Source: Bremerella volcania
GTDB taxonomy: Bacteria > Planctomycetota > Planctomycetia > Pirellulales > Pirellulaceae
Direction: 5' to 3'
Length of the DNA: 64,000 nucleotides
Assembly (NCBI RefSeq): GCF_007748115.1
Contig: NZ_CP036289.1
Coordinates: forward strand, 4,898,001-4,962,000
Shown: positions 43,924 to 51,049 of the stretch, piece after piece
Position numbering within the stretch: the first letter of the stretch is position 1
How the letters are laid out: each line of letters begins with the position of its first letter
Program-made: the position numbers and the translations under genes
Notes under the pieces: model-generated
The model's database searches: none
The model's input: the letters and a program-made list of their open reading frames with translations, nothing else
What the model was told of the DNA's origin: nothing

Positions 43924-45342
43924 ATGACATTCCGCATTCCGCTGCTGTTGATTCTCGTTTCGTGCCTTGTCGTTGGATGCAACGGCACGAAAAAGAAGGA
44001 ACTTCCCAAGGTCGAAACGCCACCTCTTTCGGTCACCATCGTCGCCGACGAGCCAATGGCTGAGGCCATCCGCCGTGAACTGGCAGCCCGAACCGAAGAA
44101 AAGATCACCGTCGACGTCGTCACCGAGGAAGTGCTGCTCGGTGAAAAGCGGTTCACGAAAGACGTGCTCATCTACCCACCAGCGATGATGGGAGAGTTGA
44201 TCCAGCGCGACTGGATCGCTCCGATTCCCACCGCCACCCTGGGCAGTGAAGAACTGAAGCTGGACGACGTCGCCCTGGGCATCTATCAAACTGAAACCCG
44301 CTGGGGATCCAAGCCGTACGCATTGCCGCTGGGCAGCCCAGTGCTGATGCTGATGGTTCGCACTGACCTGCTCGATCAACTGGGTCTGGAAGTGCCGAAC
44401 ACCTGGGACGAGTACGCCGCTGCCGTCGAAACGATCCAGAAAAGCGACCTCTTAAAAAATAACGATACGATCGCAGCGGCTACGCTCGAACCGCTGGACG
44501 AAGCTTACTTACCCAACCTGTGGCTGGCCCGCAGTGCCGCCTACGTGAAGCATGGCGAGAACCTTTCGACCTATTTCGACTTTGCCACCGGCAAGGCCCG
44601 GATCGATTCGCCTGGTTTCACCAAGGCCGCCCAGCAGTTGGCGGACGTTGCCCAAACGGTTCCCGACGCGTTCAACTCGCTCGATCCGAAAGCCTCGGCC
44701 GAGGCCTTCCTGGCCGGCAAATCGGTCATGGCGATCGGCTGGATCAACAAGTACACCATCGTGCCGGAAACGGTTCCGGAAGACATCCAGTTCGCGGCGC
44801 TGCCTGGCTCGAAGGAGACCTACAAGACGCCTGAGAACCAATGGCTCCCCCGCCCCGGCAACCAGCCCGAGAGCATCCCGCTGCTGTCGACCTCCGGCAT
44901 GGTGGGTTCGATTTCGTCCACTTCCGGCCAAACGATCAACGCGGCGAATCTGCTCGTTCTGCTGACCGGACCGGAACTCATTTCACTGATTTCCCCCGCT
45001 TCCGAGCGAACCACATTCTGCCGAATCTCCTCCTTACCGATGGCGGAAGCTTGGATGCCGAGCAACTTGCCAGGCACCGCGCTGCGGCAATACGCTCAGG
45101 CCAACCTCGAACAGTTGCAATCCCCGCGGCACCTATCGGCCCTGCGAATTCCCAACCGCCAGGCGTACGAAAAGGTCATTCGCGAAGCAATGCAGAAGAC
45201 GATGGCCGGCGATGACGCAAACGTCGAAGCTATTTGGCTGGAGGCGGCTCAAAGCTGGGACAAGCTCTCCGAAGAGTCAGGCCAGGCCGAGCACATCAAG
45301 GCCTTCCGCAACAGCCAAGGCATCGGCGAAACGGCCTTCTAG
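43924..45342 (+). CDS. ABC-type extracellular solute-binding lipoprotein
   Basis: A 472-residue lipoprotein: MTFRIPLLLILVSCLVVGC, with Cys19 the likely lipidation site. The mature protein has the family 1 (SBP_bac_1) fold, with VPNTWDEYAAAVETIQKSD and AEAFLAGKSVMAIGWIN as recognisable stretches. Family members bind sugars, polyols or other solutes for an ABC importer. No permease or ATPase genes are adjacent, so its partner is elsewhere or the protein acts alone. It ends 70 bp before the tRNA gene. Confidence 0.78.
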   Translation: MTFRIPLLLILVSCLVVGCNGTKKKELPKVETPPLSVTIVADEPMAEAIRRELAARTEEKITVDVVTEEVLLGEKRFTKDVLIYPPAMMGELIQRDWIAPIPTATLGSEELKLDDVALGIYQTETRWGSKPYALPLGSPVLMLMVRTDLLDQLGLEVPNTWDEYAAAVETIQKSDLLKNNDTIAAATLEPLDEAYLPNLWLARSAAYVKHGENLSTYFDFATGKARIDSPGFTKAAQQLADVAQTVPDAFNSLDPKASAEAFLAGKSVMAIGWINKYTIVPETVPEDIQFAALPGSKETYKTPENQWLPRPGNQPESIPLLSTSGMVGSISSTSGQTINAANLLVLLTGPELISLISPASERTTFCRISSLPMAEAWMPSNLPGTALRQYAQANLEQLQSPRHLSALRIPNRQAYEKVIREAMQKTMAGDDANVEAIWLEAAQSWDKLSEESGQAEHIKAFRNSQGIGETAF

Positions 45343-45412
45343 CCAGCCGTGTTATGGCCGGTTTCTCGCTAGACTTGAGATCACCGCTAACATAAAATCG
45401 AAAGCACCACTT

Positions 45413-45485
45413 GGGGCTGTAGCTCAGCTGGGAGAGCGCTGCGTTCGCAATGCAGAGGTCGTCGGTTCAATCCCGATCAGCTCCA
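45413..45485 (+). tRNA. tRNA-Ala (anticodon CGC)
   Basis: A full cloverleaf in 73 nt. The acceptor stem GGGGCTG pairs with CAGCTCC and includes the G3-U70 wobble, the classic alanine identity element. The D arm is GCTC...GAGC. The anticodon loop TTCGCAA gives CGC, reading GCG codons. The T arm is GTCGG TTCAATC CCGAT. The discriminator is A; the 3' CCA is not encoded. Its 3' part is repeated at 48306-48347. Confidence 0.93.
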
Positions 45486-45487
45486 CT
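45446..45487 (+). repeat. Left copy of a 42-bp direct repeat (3' end of tRNA-Ala)
   Basis: Bases 45446-45487 match 48306-48347 with two differences; 30 consecutive bases (45451-45480 and 48311-48340) are identical. The copy includes the T arm and 3' acceptor strand of the tRNA, which is where tyrosine integrases often insert mobile DNA. Confidence 0.9.
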
Positions 45488-45881
45488 TATTTGACTTCTA
45501 TGTTTCTGGACCGGCTTGGGGCCGTAAGGTCTGAGCAAGATCTTTTTGAGTATCCGCCCGTTTTATTCATCAGAACGAAGACGTATCGCCTGCCGAGTCA
45601 CCGCTTCGCACTGCCGAGGACGACAGTGCACACCTGTAAAACACAGCTACGAATTGACGGCTATTTTCTCGCGAACCACAGACGCTATGTTTTGCCAGGA
45701 ATCACGTGGTGCAGGAAAGAAACTTGCCACAGGGCTAAGGTGAAATCTCGAAGCAACCTAAAGATCACACGTGACATCAATTCCTCGGTTTTCTATACTT
45801 TGAACCTTGATCCCCGAGATCGTTTCCCACATTCCCTCGTTGAATGGATTGAAGAAACGACCAGTTTCAGGAACCCATTTC
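45486..45881. other. A+T-rich region upstream of the island hydrolase gene
   Basis: About 400 bp with no credible gene. It contains the promoter at 45771-45799 and then a ~75-nt leader. Composition differs from the GC-rich genes around it. Confidence 0.4.
45771..45799 (+). promoter_or_regulatory. Sigma-70-type promoter of the island hydrolase gene
   Basis: GTGACA (45771-45776) and TATACT (45794-45799) are separated by exactly 17 nt, each one or two bases from consensus. Transcription would begin near 45806, so the leader is ~76 nt and the in-frame TTG at 45807 cannot be the start. Confidence 0.6.
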
Positions 45882-48200
45882 ATGGGTCGATTCTTGCGAT
45901 GCGTGCTGATTTGCGTTTGGCTGTTCGCTTTTGTATCGAATAGTCACGCCGAAACTCCTTCCGTCGAGTACGGTCCTGCTTTGCCAGGCACCCGCTTGTT
46001 GGAGATGGAAGGAGACGGTGCGCAGATTGCCTCGCAGATGGTTGCCGGGATTGATCGTTTTCTGCTTCAGGAGATCGCGGCCGCACCTGGTAAGCGAACA
46101 CAGTACTGGGACCGTAATACCAGTTCTCCGGAAGCCTATGCGCGATCGGTCGAGAAGAACCGTCAGCGACTGGCGGAGACATTAGGGGTACGCGACGAGC
46201 GCCAGCCTAAGATTGGGCTGCAGCGAACGACCAGCGTGAATGAGCCGCAGGCGCTCGCATCCTCGCAAAACGTCGATGTGATCGCCGTGGATTGGCCGGT
46301 ATTCGGGGTCATCCGAGGAGAAGGCTTGCTGCTGAGGCCCAAAGGGCAGGTTCATGGGAGCATCGTCGCGATTCCCGACGCCGCACAAACGCCTGAGCAA
46401 TTGGCTGGCCTCGATCCAGGCATCGCTCCCTCGTCGCAGTTTGCTCGGCAACTCGCTGAAAGTGGCTTCCAGGTTGTGATTCCGACGATCATCACACGTG
46501 AGCGAGGACTTCTGAAATTTCCTGGACCACGACAAAGTCAATTGCCTGGCCGAGAACTTCTTTATCGGTCCGCCTTTGAACTGGGTCGGCATTTGATTGG
46601 CTACGAAGTTCAAAAGGTTCTGGCTGCCGTCGACGCGTTTGCCCAGGATGGCAAGCAACCGATCGGGGTGATTGGTTATGGCGAAGGGGGCATGCTGGCC
46701 CTGTATGCAGGTGCCCTGGACGAGCGAATCGACTCGGTCGGGGTCAGTGGCTATTTCACTTCGCGACAGAACATCTGGGAGGAACCGATCGATCGCAACG
46801 TGTTTGGTCGACTGCGGGAATTCGGTGATGCGGAGATTGCCAGCCTGATCGCGCCGCGTCACCTGGCGATCGAAGCGGCAGCGGGCCCCGAGGTCAACTT
46901 GCCGGGCGAACATGGCTCGGCTCCTGGCGTGCTCGTGTCACCCTCCCTGGAACAAGTAACGCACGAGTGGAAACGAGCCCAGGCATTGGTTGGTGATCGC
47001 CTCGCTGATGCGAGGCTCACTTTCACCAGCGAAGAAGACGGCCAAGGCTCGTTCGGATCGGAGCAATGGCTCACACAATTTTTCAGCGGCCTCAAATCGG
47101 AGACATCGCTGGCGACCACCACGCAGTTGCCTGAGTATGTCGGCAAGCCGGTCGACCAGCAGGCTCGGATGGTTCGCCAGATGAACCAGATCAATCGCCA
47201 GAACCAAACGATCTTGGCCGACAGCGCCGCGGTTCGCACTGCCTACTTTCGGCCAGATAACTCTTCGCTGGCCGCGTACGAAAAGAGTATTGCGCCGTAT
47301 CGCGAGACATTTGAAACAGAGGTGATCGGCAAGTTTGAGCGTCCCCTGTTGCCTGCCAGCCCGCGTACCCGGCAGATTTATTCTGAGTCAAAATGGACCG
47401 GATACGAAGTTGCGCTAGATGTGTTTCCAGAGGTGTTCGCGTATGGTCTGCTTCTGTTGCCCAGTGATATGGCCCCCGACGAGAAACGTCCGGTCGTCGT
47501 TTGCCAGCATGGCTTGGAAGGTCGCCCAGATCACTTGATTGGTGAGGAAAAGTTCGCGGCCTACCAGGCCTACGCAGTATCGCTTGTCGAGCGAGGCTTT
47601 GTCGTTTTTTGTCCTCAGAATCCGTACATCTACCAAGATCGCTTTCGGACCTTGCAGCGAAAGGCCAACGCGCTCGGCAAGACGTTGTTTTCGATCATCG
47701 TTCCCCAGCACCGGCAGATTACCCAGTGGCTGAAGACGCAACCGTACGTCGATCCGGATCGCATCGCCTTTTATGGCCTGAGCTATGGAGGCAAGTCGGC
47801 CATGCGCATTCCTCCCTTGGTGCCTGCCTATTCGGCGGTGATCTGCTCAGGAGACTTTAATGCCTGGATCGACAAGGTCGCCTCGACCCGCAATCCGCGG
47901 AGCTACATTTGGACCGGTGAGTACGAGATATTCGAGTTCAATCTGGGCAACACGTTTGGTTACGCCGAAATGGCCGGACTGATCGCACCGCGTCCGTTCA
48001 TGGTGGAACGCGGACATTTCGACGGAGTCGCCGACGACGAAAAAGTAGGGCACGAGTTTGCTAAGGTCCGCCACCTCTACGCTGCCCAGTTAAAGATCCC
48101 CGAGCAGTGCGAAATCGAATGGTTCGACGGGGGACACATGATCCACGGCCAGGGATCGTTCGACTTCTTACATCGTCATTTGCAGTGGCCCAAGCGCTGA
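45882..48200 (+). CDS. Exported two-domain alpha/beta hydrolase with a degenerate first domain
   Basis: A 772-residue protein with signal peptide MGRFLRCVLICVWLFAFVSN (cleavage near Ala23). Two alpha/beta-hydrolase-like units are visible. The first (~150-350) has GVIGYGEGGMLALYAG at the nucleophile elbow: Gly replaces the Ser of GxSxG, so it is probably inactive. The second (~520-770) has GLSYGGKSA (~632), a proper GxSxG, with the likely acid in GHFDGVADDE and the catalytic His in FDGGHMIHGQ (~750). Relatives include dienelactone hydrolase and acetyl-xylan-esterase-like enzymes, so it may cleave esters of polysaccharides or another polymer. The ATG at 45882 is supported by AGGAA 8 nt upstream and by the promoter. 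Confidence 0.75.
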   Translation: MGRFLRCVLICVWLFAFVSNSHAETPSVEYGPALPGTRLLEMEGDGAQIASQMVAGIDRFLLQEIAAAPGKRTQYWDRNTSSPEAYARSVEKNRQRLAETLGVRDERQPKIGLQRTTSVNEPQALASSQNVDVIAVDWPVFGVIRGEGLLLRPKGQVHGSIVAIPDAAQTPEQLAGLDPGIAPSSQFARQLAESGFQVVIPTIITRERGLLKFPGPRQSQLPGRELLYRSAFELGRHLIGYEVQKVLAAVDAFAQDGKQPIGVIGYGEGGMLALYAGALDERIDSVGVSGYFTSRQNIWEEPIDRNVFGRLREFGDAEIASLIAPRHLAIEAAAGPEVNLPGEHGSAPGVLVSPSLEQVTHEWKRAQALVGDRLADARLTFTSEEDGQGSFGSEQWLTQFFSGLKSETSLATTTQLPEYVGKPVDQQARMVRQMNQINRQNQTILADSAAVRTAYFRPDNSSLAAYEKSIAPYRETFETEVIGKFERPLLPASPRTRQIYSESKWTGYEVALDVFPEVFAYGLLLLPSDMAPDEKRPVVVCQHGLEGRPDHLIGEEKFAAYQAYAVSLVERGFVVFCPQNPYIYQDRFRTLQRKANALGKTLFSIIVPQHRQITQWLKTQPYVDPDRIAFYGLSYGGKSAMRIPPLVPAYSAVICSGDFNAWIDKVASTRNPRSYIWTGEYEIFEFNLGNTFGYAEMAGLIAPRPFMVERGHFDGVADDEKVGHEFAKVRHLYAAQLKIPEQCEIEWFDGGHMIHGQGSFDFLHRHLQWPKR

Positions 48201-48305
48201 TATGGGCCTTCAACCGCATCGATTCAGTAAATTCGCTTTGGCCAAAGTGCGCGAAATTGTCAAAAGACCGGCAAACAGGCACCTTCCGATACAGAGGGCT
48301 CCATG

Positions 48306-48347
48306 CGCACTGCAGAGGTCGTCGGTTCAATCCCGATCAGTTCCACT
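48306..48347 (+). repeat. Right copy of the 42-bp repeat: isolated tRNA-Ala 3' fragment
   Basis: It contains the last ~40 bases of tRNA-Ala, with one substitution in the acceptor strand (GTTCC for GCTCC). No 5' half of a tRNA precedes it, so it cannot fold into a tRNA; it is the displaced 3' end expected after insertion. Confidence 0.88.
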
Positions 48348-48397
48348 ATTTTTCTCCCCGAACTTCTACGGCGGATTCTGTACCGCGTAATCGGCGG

Positions 48398-51049
48398 TTA
48401 ATCCTTCTTCTCCTCAGTAGCTTCCAGCTTCTTCTCCAACTCGTCGAGCTTCTTCTTCAGCGAGTCGTTCGACTTCTCGAGATCCTGCATTTGCTTGCGG
48501 AGTTCGATCAATTCGGTCGGCTGCGGGGTGCTGTCCTTGGTTAGCGTGGCCAAGGCACTTTCGGCTGCTTTGGAGAGCTGGTCGTTGTGCGAGGCATCGG
48601 CGTAGGCTTGCAGGATTGGCCGGGCCTCTTCCAGGCCGAGTTTGCCGAGCGCTTCGATCGCTCCCTTTTGCACGTCCTCGCGGGGATCGTTCAGGTGCGG
48701 AGCGATCTGCCCCAGTGACTGAAGCTTCTCTTGCTTTTCGTCGCTCAGGCTGGCGAGCGTCTTGAGCAAGCTGGCCAGGCCGCGGGTCGTGTAGTTATCG
48801 GCGTGCCGAGCAACCTGTTCGGCCAGATCGGGGACGTACTGTGAAGAGCCACTCTTGCGCATCGCTTCAACGGCCGCTTCGGCGATTTCGTTGCGAAACG
48901 ACTCTTGCTCGAGCGAAGCTCGCAGGTACTGGCTGACCGGTTCGTCGGAATACTTGGCCAGGCCTTCGATCCAAGCCGCCACGATGGCTGGGTTCTTCTC
49001 GGCCTGGGCTCCTTGCAGCAGCGTGCTCACCTCTTCCGGCTGGTAGTCGCCGACGGTTGCTTTCACCAGGGCCAGGCGAACGCGGGCATCGTTGGGGGTG
49101 GCCGTCTTGCGGAGGGCGGCTCGTGACTCGTCCGAGTTGATCTTGCCCAGCGCCTCGGCGGCTTCCACGCGAACGCCATAGAACGGGTCGGTCTCCAGCG
49201 ACTTCTGAATCGCGTCAATCGCTTTGTTCGACTTCTTCTTGGCCAACGCTTCCAGGGCCAGGATGCGGCCGGTGGCACGCTCGGCGTTTTCCAGCTGGTT
49301 GATCCACATCTCTTCCGGCTTGTCGAAATCGACCTTGGCCAGCAGGGTGTACTCGGGATCGAACTGCACCATCTCGGGCTTGGCAGGCAAGGCCACGTAG
49401 AACTCGTGCTTGGCCTCGGTGACGTCTTCCGTGTGCAGAACCACTTCGCCATCGCACAGGAAAGCGAACTTCGCCGGGAAGTTAAACAGCATCACGTCGT
49501 CGTCCACTTTGTGGGTTTGCTCGAGCGTGATTTGGGCCAACGAAAGTTTCGGATCGAAGCGGTAGCGAATCTTCAGGTCCGGATGCCGGGCATGATAGAC
49601 CCACTGATCGAAGAACCGATCGAACGTTCGTCCGCTGGCTTCCTCGAAGGCCGCTTGTAGCTCCGGCGTGGTGACCGTCGTCAGGGCGTGCTCTTTCAAG
49701 TAGCTTTGAATCGCCTCGCGAAACATCTCTTCGCCCAGTTGGCTGCGAAGCATGTGCAGCACCCAGCTTCCTTTGGGGTAGGCCCGGTAGTCGAACTGTT
49801 CGCCTGCGTTGCGGTACTTCTTCCACACGATCGGCCGTTTGTCATTGGCTCCGTTCCGCAAAACGCGATTAGTCGCGTCGCGGTAAAGACCATACAGCAT
49901 CGCATCACGCCCGAACTTCTCCCCTTCGTACAAATGCGTGTAGTAGGTCGCGAAGCCTTCGTTGAGCCACAAGTGACTCCAGTCTTCACAGGTAACGTAG
50001 TCGCCAAACCATTGGTGGGCCAGTTCGTGAGCATCGAGCCCTCGCGACGTGCGGATGTTTTCGGTCGCCGGGGTAAAGATCGTGTTGTGCGTCAACGTGG
50101 TGATCGTGGTGTTCTCCATTCCGCCGGCCATAAAGTCGCGAATGGTGACCTGATCGTACTTGTGCCACGGGTACGCCACCCCGATCTCCTTCTGATAGAA
50201 GTTCATGATCGAAGCCGTATCTTGAAACGAATTCGCCGCGTGCTCGGAAAGCGTGGGCTGGCTGTAGTAGCCGAGGGGAATCTTTCCGGCGGCGTCTTCC
50301 AACTTGTCGAAGTAGCCAGCGACGACGCAGATCAAGTAGTTCACGTGCGGCTTGTCTTGCAGCCAATGAACCGACTTCATATTCGTGCGCGGGTCAATGC
50401 TTTCTCCCAGATTGCGACCATTGGAAATCACGGTCATGTCACTGGGTACGTGGCAAATGACCTCGGTCGTCGACTTCTCGTTCGGGTAGTCGAAGCAGGG
50501 GAACCATTGCCGGGCGTAGTGGGACTCGCCTTGCGTCCAGCAGTGGGTGTCCTGTTCGGGGTAACCCATCTCGGCCGTGCGAAAATAGAAACCACCTTGT
50601 GGCTGGCAGTGATGCTTAATCGTGACCCAGCTTTCCTGACCCACGGGAATGGGCTCGGCGAAGGCGATCGTCAGGTCCTTGCTCGTATTGTCGAATTCAG
50701 AAACCGGCGTCGACCCTTCGACGCTGGTAATCGTAAGATCGACCGCATCGAGCTTGAGGACGTCGATCGCCTTGCGCAGCGGCACGAAGCGAATAGTCGT
50801 TGTGCCGCCGACGGTTCGCTCTTGGAAGTTGGGCGTGATGTCGAGCTTGATATGCTGCACGTCGACTTTACGTACCGGGGCGTAGTGCGGACCGTCATCC
50901 CCCAGGTCGACGCCAAACCCGAGCCGCGCCGAGGCGGACTCGCAGTAGCGGCACGTACAGAGGGCTTCTTCAGCCAAGGCAAGCGAATGATGTGCGACAG
51001 CCGTCAACAAGCAGACTGCGACCAAGAACGCGATTCGGAAGGATTTCAT
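48398..51049 (-). CDS. Exported M1-family aminopeptidase with HEAT-like repeats and C-terminal coiled coil
   Basis: An 883-residue gluzincin with a signal peptide (FLVAVCLLTAVAHHSLA). The M1 core has MAGGMENTTITTLTH (the GxMEN exopeptidase loop, ~306), the zinc site HELAHQWFGDY (~338) and the third ligand Glu in WLNEGFATYYTH. From ~600 to 830 come helical repeats of HEAT/armadillo type (EALGKINSDESRAALRKTA and others), and the last ~35 residues are a coiled coil (KKLDELEKKLEATEEKKD). It trims N-terminal residues from peptides outside the cell membrane. A short Cys-rich segment CTCRYC follows the signal peptide. The repeat extension may mediate assembly. Confidence 0.9.
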   Translation of the reverse strand: MKSFRIAFLVAVCLLTAVAHHSLALAEEALCTCRYCESASARLGFGVDLGDDGPHYAPVRKVDVQHIKLDITPNFQERTVGGTTTIRFVPLRKAIDVLKLDAVDLTITSVEGSTPVSEFDNTSKDLTIAFAEPIPVGQESWVTIKHHCQPQGGFYFRTAEMGYPEQDTHCWTQGESHYARQWFPCFDYPNEKSTTEVICHVPSDMTVISNGRNLGESIDPRTNMKSVHWLQDKPHVNYLICVVAGYFDKLEDAAGKIPLGYYSQPTLSEHAANSFQDTASIMNFYQKEIGVAYPWHKYDQVTIRDFMAGGMENTTITTLTHNTIFTPATENIRTSRGLDAHELAHQWFGDYVTCEDWSHLWLNEGFATYYTHLYEGEKFGRDAMLYGLYRDATNRVLRNGANDKRPIVWKKYRNAGEQFDYRAYPKGSWVLHMLRSQLGEEMFREAIQSYLKEHALTTVTTPELQAAFEEASGRTFDRFFDQWVYHARHPDLKIRYRFDPKLSLAQITLEQTHKVDDDVMLFNFPAKFAFLCDGEVVLHTEDVTEAKHEFYVALPAKPEMVQFDPEYTLLAKVDFDKPEEMWINQLENAERATGRILALEALAKKKSNKAIDAIQKSLETDPFYGVRVEAAEALGKINSDESRAALRKTATPNDARVRLALVKATVGDYQPEEVSTLLQGAQAEKNPAIVAAWIEGLAKYSDEPVSQYLRASLEQESFRNEIAEAAVEAMRKSGSSQYVPDLAEQVARHADNYTTRGLASLLKTLASLSDEKQEKLQSLGQIAPHLNDPREDVQKGAIEALGKLGLEEARPILQAYADASHNDQLSKAAESALATLTKDSTPQPTELIELRKQMQDLEKSNDSLKKKLDELEKKLEATEEKKD

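Follow-up and report, generated by a model that had tools for sequence, protein, structure and literature searches.

A probable eroded remnant of an old integrative element beside tRNA-Ala(CGC) in Bremerella volcania

In the 64,000-nt stretch of the Bremerella volcania chromosome analysed here (the window), a tRNA-Ala(CGC) gene is followed by a second copy of its own 3' end, and the two copies enclose a single long gene. This layout raises the question of whether the interval houses a mobile element, or once did. Integrases that target tRNA genes leave an intact tRNA gene and a displaced 3' fragment that together bound the insert, as described in the Islander paper (PMC4383910). A preliminary description of this DNA had accordingly proposed a mini-island, either a cargo-only remnant or a satellite mobilised in trans. 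We assign a probability of roughly 80% to the reading that the segment is an eroded remnant of an old integrative element beside tRNA-Ala(CGC). No title on this locus appeared among the literature matches listed, which is not a claim that it is absent from print.

ARAGORN detected only one tRNA in the whole window, the tRNA-Ala (CGC) at 45413-45486, and an Rfam search of 45300-48500 returned the same lone gene at 45413-45485. The copies of its 3' end are in direct orientation, with a copy-to-copy spacing of 2860 bp (Table 1). Over tRNA positions 34-74 they agree except for mismatches at 38 and 69, the identical run covering 30 bases (positions 39-68), and the similarity fades upstream, with 13/18 matches at positions 21-38. 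Direct comparison thus bore out the recurrence of 30 identical bases 2860 bp downstream, and its reported extension to 42 bases with two mismatches (45446-45487 versus 48306-48347) was correct, coordinates included. A chance repeat is ruled out by shuffle scores and by a genome-wide count. The 44-mer of tRNA positions 31-74 matched the displaced copy at 40/44 positions, while the best of 200 base shuffles of the insert reached 27; with up to 2 mismatches allowed, a 22-base core was found at exactly two sites in the 6,496,182-base genome, and its reversed control at none. Separately, the second-best match to the 3' end, at 45604-45647 inside the left-end sequence, scored 27/44 for both tRNA alleles described below, the best of 200 shuffles being 27 and 26; it may be a chance match or a strongly decayed extra copy of the tRNA 3' end.

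Table 1. Coordinates in the window of the tRNA-Ala(CGC) gene, the repeat copies and the neighbouring features
Feature	Position	Strand	Basis or distribution
Left flanking gene, 472 aa, no Pfam match, lipoprotein-like start by eye	43924..45342	+	present in 9/9 genus genomes
tRNA-Ala(CGC), intact; probable integration target; T-stem allele A	45413..45486	+	ARAGORN, Rfam
Repeat copy 1, att-like core, tRNA positions 34-74 (anticodon to 3' end)	45446..45486	+	
Left-end sequence Y	45487..45628	+	common to G002 directly after its tRNA; not found in G001
Hydrolase gene, 772 aa, DLH/Abhydrolase_7, probably secreted	45882..48200	+	Pfam, alignment with G001 and G002
Repeat copy 2, displaced tRNA-Ala 3' end (core 48306-48346)	48293..48346	+	
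Native right flank X	48347..48389	+	directly follows intact tRNA in G001
Right flanking gene, M1-family peptidase with HEAT repeats	48398..51049	-	present in 9/9 genus genomes

As noted in the preliminary description, the sole long gene between the repeats encodes a hydrolase, which Pfam identifies as a two-domain alpha/beta hydrolase (DLH and Abhydrolase_7). The listed ORF opens at TTG 45807, and its 797-aa frame has best matches to PF01738 over residues 210-311 and to PF12715 over 521-739. Alignment with two relatives, G001 and G002 (the nine genus genomes compared here are G000 to G008, B. volcania itself being G000), suggests that the true start is ATG 45882, after which a signal-peptide-like stretch was recognised by eye; the enzyme is probably secreted. 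The motif GLSYGG is read in the C-terminal half, at what is presumably the position of the nucleophile serine, and GYGEGG, without serine, in the N-terminal half. A search of solved structures gave only two matches, both peptidase sequences (E about 0.0009), PADLOC gave no match to the gene as a defence gene, and a scan of genome contigs with the hydrolase yielded one relative only (32%). Besides itself, its matches in G000 are of 26-28% identity only. Its G+C content (0.574) equals the window value, with no foreign composition, and the first stretch past the tRNA (45487-45880) is poorer, at 0.477. Neither an integrase nor a trace of one was found between the repeats in the ORF list or by comparison with the integrases of relatives, which agrees with the absence reported earlier. 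When seven proteins encoded on the tRNA-Ala contigs of G003 and G004, six of them with integrase matches by Pfam or similarity, were compared with the window, no match was better than E 0.018, and the nine PF00589 places in G000 all lie outside the interval.

Among the relatives, the interval between the two flanking genes differs in content from species to species. Both genes are on one contig in 7/9 genomes (G000, G001, G002, G005, G006, G007 and G008), and on separate contigs in G003 (68% complete) and G004. The compact site is that of G008, where about 220 bp between the flanking genes hold only the tRNA and, judged by eye, a hairpin followed by T's, the peptidase gene coming within about 100 bp after the tRNA. 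The corresponding distance is 8 kb in G006, with glycosyltransferase, FkbM methyltransferase, nucleotidyltransferase and HAD family matches, 3 kb in G007, with an asparaginase and a PF13557 gene, and about 2.7 kb in G005, without a full tRNA. G001 (88%) and G002 (86%) have the hydrolase between these two flanking genes. Displaced copies were sought in the inserts of G001, G002, G006 and G007, and none scored above shuffles. A segment common to all relatives, or a repeat recurring elsewhere in the genome, had been named as grounds for rejecting an insertion; neither was found. In G005 (C7:258432-258475; L097 1733-1776), tRNA-Ala(CGC) is reduced to positions 31-74. No full tRNA-Ala(CGC) was found in this draft genome, the best full-length match being 84%, and judging from these matches the gene seems to have been lost to an insertion.

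The junctions are informative about what belongs to the locus. The sequence X (48349-48389) is 80% identical over 41 bp between G000 and G001, and it adjoins the intact tRNA in G001 but the displaced copy in G000. When 80 bases of X were searched against the nine genomes at E 0.001, one occurrence each was found in G001 and G002 and none in the other seven, G000's own weaker match being detected only by local comparison; X is therefore regarded as native to the locus. That X is a dispersed repeat which landed twice behind the tRNA is ruled out by its single occurrences in G001 and G002. In G002, X comes after the hydrolase, and a dispersed repeat ending in TTCTTCTCCACA stands in place of a recognisable tRNA copy. 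At the other end, Y is 74% identical over 143 bp between G000 and G002, and lies right after the tRNA in both. The insert-free site in a relative that marks an island of the Islander type, and that the preliminary description had asked for, is thus represented by the compact site of G008 and in part by G001, whose tRNA runs directly into the sequence that follows 48347 but which retains the hydrolase further along. These junctions also bear on the idea that slippage or gene conversion duplicated the tRNA 3' end locally, no integrase being involved. A short repeat and an integrase-free segment are what such an event might produce; it leaves unexplained, however, why X should begin behind the displaced copy precisely where the tRNA ends, as well as the T-stem pattern and the integrases at the same tRNA in relatives that are described next, and we find it hardly credible.

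Integrases occur at tRNA-Ala or its displaced ends in two relatives of the genus. In G003, a 508-aa tyrosine recombinase ORF begins about 140 bp past the tRNA. In G004, the tRNA lies on contig C9 together with a TrwC relaxase gene, an integrase and a gene resembling those of coupling proteins. Two more tRNA-Ala 3' copies are on contig C38, with two integrases beside the first, and contig C15 combines a displaced tRNA 3' end with a 193-aa integrase and with a 511-aa frame that lacks a Pfam match at E 0.001 but shares 34% identity with the G003 integrase over 281 residues. These three contigs, which are not joined, look like a tandem island array. Matches to SngA, SngB and SngC defence models lie beside the C9 integrase (L116 9462-15641). 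An anticodon-arm pattern search matched 33/60 genomes, and four loci outside the genus were inspected (G017, G027, G041 and G054), G027 and G054 having been picked for a second match. G027, from another family, has a second tRNA-Ala 3' copy at a distance of 11.7 kb, and tblastn gave integrase-like matches near each of the two (the interval is at L167 1935-14925). Similarly, G054, also from another family, has an integrase-like match beside tRNA-Ala(CGC), and none was seen at the tRNA-Ala loci of G017 and G041. The tRNA-Ala site is thus used as a target outside the genus too, a sample of four loci giving no frequency. The proposal that tRNA-targeted integration lies behind the layout is accordingly supported by the G008 site, the tRNA-X junction of G001 and the integrases by tRNA-Ala in relatives.

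Elsewhere in B. volcania, five of nine tyrosine recombinase stretches were checked for tRNAs, and 4/5 hold a tRNA gene (Leu, Glu, Ser, Val; G000:C1, 1735500-1739500, 1297000-1301000, 546500-550500 and 4288500-4293000), which suggests that this genome has other tRNA-targeted insertions. The G003 integrase has its best match in G000 in a 477-aa frame (30% identity), and the G004 C9 integrase in two 317-aa frames (29%); identities of 29-30% say little about a common target.

The tRNA-Ala gene itself exists in two forms that differ in the T-stem, allele A (GTCGG/CCGAT) and allele B (GTGAG/CTCAT). The intact tRNA carries A in G000, G001, G007 and G008, and B in G002, G003, G004 and G006, no intact gene having been found in G005. 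Displaced ends carry A in G000, G003, G005 and G004 C15, and B in both C38 copies of G004. This distribution fits A being the host sequence and B being borne by elements. If so, the pair G000 (A, with Y) and G002 (B, with Y) would call for gene conversion, or for another integration, in one of the lineages.

How long the hydrolase has resided at the site was estimated from silent positions. For the pairs G000-G001, G000-G002 and G001-G002, fourfold-site differences are 0.321, 0.375 and 0.384 in the hydrolase gene, 0.362, 0.351 and 0.388 in the peptidase gene, and 0.374, 0.395 and 0.417 in the left gene. The silent-site divergence of the hydrolase matches that of its neighbours, and its G+C content is host-like; vertical inheritance since the common ancestor of the three species is therefore indicated. 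To judge from these figures, the hydrolase behaves as a long-fixed chromosomal gene in an eroded scar. A tree of 11 genes (the 19 window ORFs minus 8 missing from any of six genomes) separates G000, G001 and G002 from G005 with support of 92 (all sites) or 100 (codon positions 1 and 2), and a two-gene tree does so with 64; a single gain of the hydrolase is enough for the three species. Branching order within the trio is not settled by the trees, since the two-gene support is 44, the hydrolase tree joins G001 and G002 at 78, and the 11-gene tree favours G000 with G002 at 67 (all sites) versus G000 with G001 at 85 (codon positions 1 and 2). The displaced core is well kept for its supposed age. 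With neutral change of 0.18-0.13 per site and lineage, the values obtained by halving the fourfold and Y differences, a single mismatch in 36 bases at positions 39-74 has P 0.007-0.04, and 4 mismatches in 44 at positions 31-74 have P 0.08-0.31. This may weakly hint that the scar is younger than the hydrolase, or that the two copies have exchanged sequence.

The gene order of G001 complicates the picture. There, the tRNA is followed by X, a PD-(D/E)XK gene (PF13366), a dispersed repeat, the hydrolase gene, an SBF transporter gene, a second dispersed repeat that is by eye a degenerate copy, a peptidase-end fragment, another gene and the peptidase gene. Compared with G000, the order is circularly permuted, the hydrolase lying beyond X. 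With up to 2 mismatches, the core of the dispersed repeat has 5, 8 and 14 copies in G000, G001 and G002 and none in G005 and G008, these five genomes being the ones counted. Excision at the tRNA followed by re-entry at a dispersed repeat would yield such an order and may account for it; so may a hydrolase that arrived independently, or an X unit that moved. Integration and hydrolase might then be separate events, the element having been lost wholly and the hydrolase having entered by another route, for example by recombination at dispersed CCGCGGATTACGCGGAT-type repeats. This variant, which is compatible with an eroded remnant, draws on the position of the G001 hydrolase on the far side of X, on the CCGCGGATTACGCGGAT-type repeat at each side of the hydrolase-transporter pair and right after the hydrolase in G002, and on a related hydrolase (62%) that G007 carries on another contig, where M56 peptidase and lactate/malate dehydrogenase genes are close by and the 16 kb examined around it contain no tRNA. 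On the other hand, simple cargo would be placed just as the hydrolase is, enclosed by the tRNA and the displaced copy in G000 and by the tRNA and X in G002, so that we hold separate events to be possible, if on the unlikely side.

A bolder proposal is that an integrase-free segment moved in the G001 lineage, a circle being excised, the tRNA-X junction restored and the segment re-entering next door via CCGCGGATTACGCGGAT-type repeats, with such cycles swapping the tRNA T-stem between its two alleles. We regard this as doubtful; if true, the tRNA sequence itself would be a record of past insertions. Two further features of G001 were observed. The PF13366 gene, which we take to be GxxExxY-like, lies between inverted CCGCGGATT-CGCGGAT repeats (L095 5903-6301), with which it possibly forms a small dispersed unit. 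A 44-bp fragment like the 3' end of the peptidase gene, separate from the true gene end (L095 1784-1827), marks a local rearrangement.

Whether the segment might still be mobile has also to be considered. A cargo-only mini-element that continues to excise and integrate, with the integrase supplied in trans by another element, would agree with the direct orientation and good preservation of both repeats and, through an excised circle, with the permuted order of G001; B. volcania moreover has, elsewhere, the 30%-identical relative of the G003 tRNA-Ala integrase, although this identity is a weak guide to a common target. Against such a satellite, the silent-site divergence of the hydrolase equals that of its neighbours in three species, the other hydrolase matches in G000 are distant, and sources that might carry close copies gave none. 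Thus, the hydrolase found no close relative among 72,556 plasmid records, two of which matched at no more than 27% identity, and no matches in 50,697 phage records, and viral contigs contained no exact match to the 29-base tRNA core in either allelic form. With divergence concordant with that of the neighbours and no close copies on plasmid or phage records, there is no sign of recent transfer. The claim of a mini-island or trans-mobilised satellite of the present day is not supported by these comparisons or by the G+C content, which is that of the window; we judge it very improbable, and the segment is probably immobile today.

An eroded remnant would thus have arisen as follows. In an ancestor, recombination by an integrase would have joined an element to the tRNA gene close to the anticodon loop, so that the tRNA was made whole again by the 3' half that the element carried, and the original 3' half came to lie at the opposite end of the insert. 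Deletion would later have removed the integrase and most of the element. The secreted hydrolase would have arrived with the element, or by another way into the site, and then stayed, being inherited vertically since before the split of G000, G001 and G002. This reading is supported by the presence of only two copies in the genome, the variable contents between constant flanks, the X junctions, the integrases at the tRNA, the T-stem alleles and the silent-site divergence of the hydrolase. Of the earlier term "cargo-only remnant", it is the eroded remnant of integration that stands, while the hydrolase is vertically inherited and not mobile cargo today. Several observations tell against the simple form of this history. 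No integrase trace lies between the repeats; the hydrolase, lying beyond X in G001, may not belong to what was first inserted; G002 has Y with allele B and lacks a recognisable displaced copy, which needs gene conversion or a second integration; and in G003, 37 kb separate the displaced end from the peptidase gene, whose orientation it shares, contrary to expectation.

These results are of interest in that one tRNA gene serves as an insertion hotspot in a genus, where elements appear to rewrite its 3' half with a distinguishable allele. A displaced fragment, taken together with the tRNA sequence, allows old scars without an integrase to be recognised, with the caution that a short tRNA-bounded interval need not be an active mobile island. 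The segment is best read as an ordinary type of relic at a busy insertion spot, a decayed remnant of a known kind. The locus resembles the tRNA islands of the Islander class (PMC4383910) in its intact tRNA, the same-orientation 3' fragment downstream and the insert between them, in a repeat that begins at the anticodon loop, and in its length, 2860 bp against a minimum of 2 kb. It differs in that its interval has no integrase and one passenger gene, vertically inherited; Islander, according to the same paper (PMC4383910), discards candidates without an integrase. The tandem islands at one tRNA that are also described there (PMC4383910) are resembled by G004, whose three separate contigs carry several 3' copies of tRNA-Ala along with integrases, a relaxase and defence genes, whereas the B. 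volcania window holds a single, small, decayed interval.
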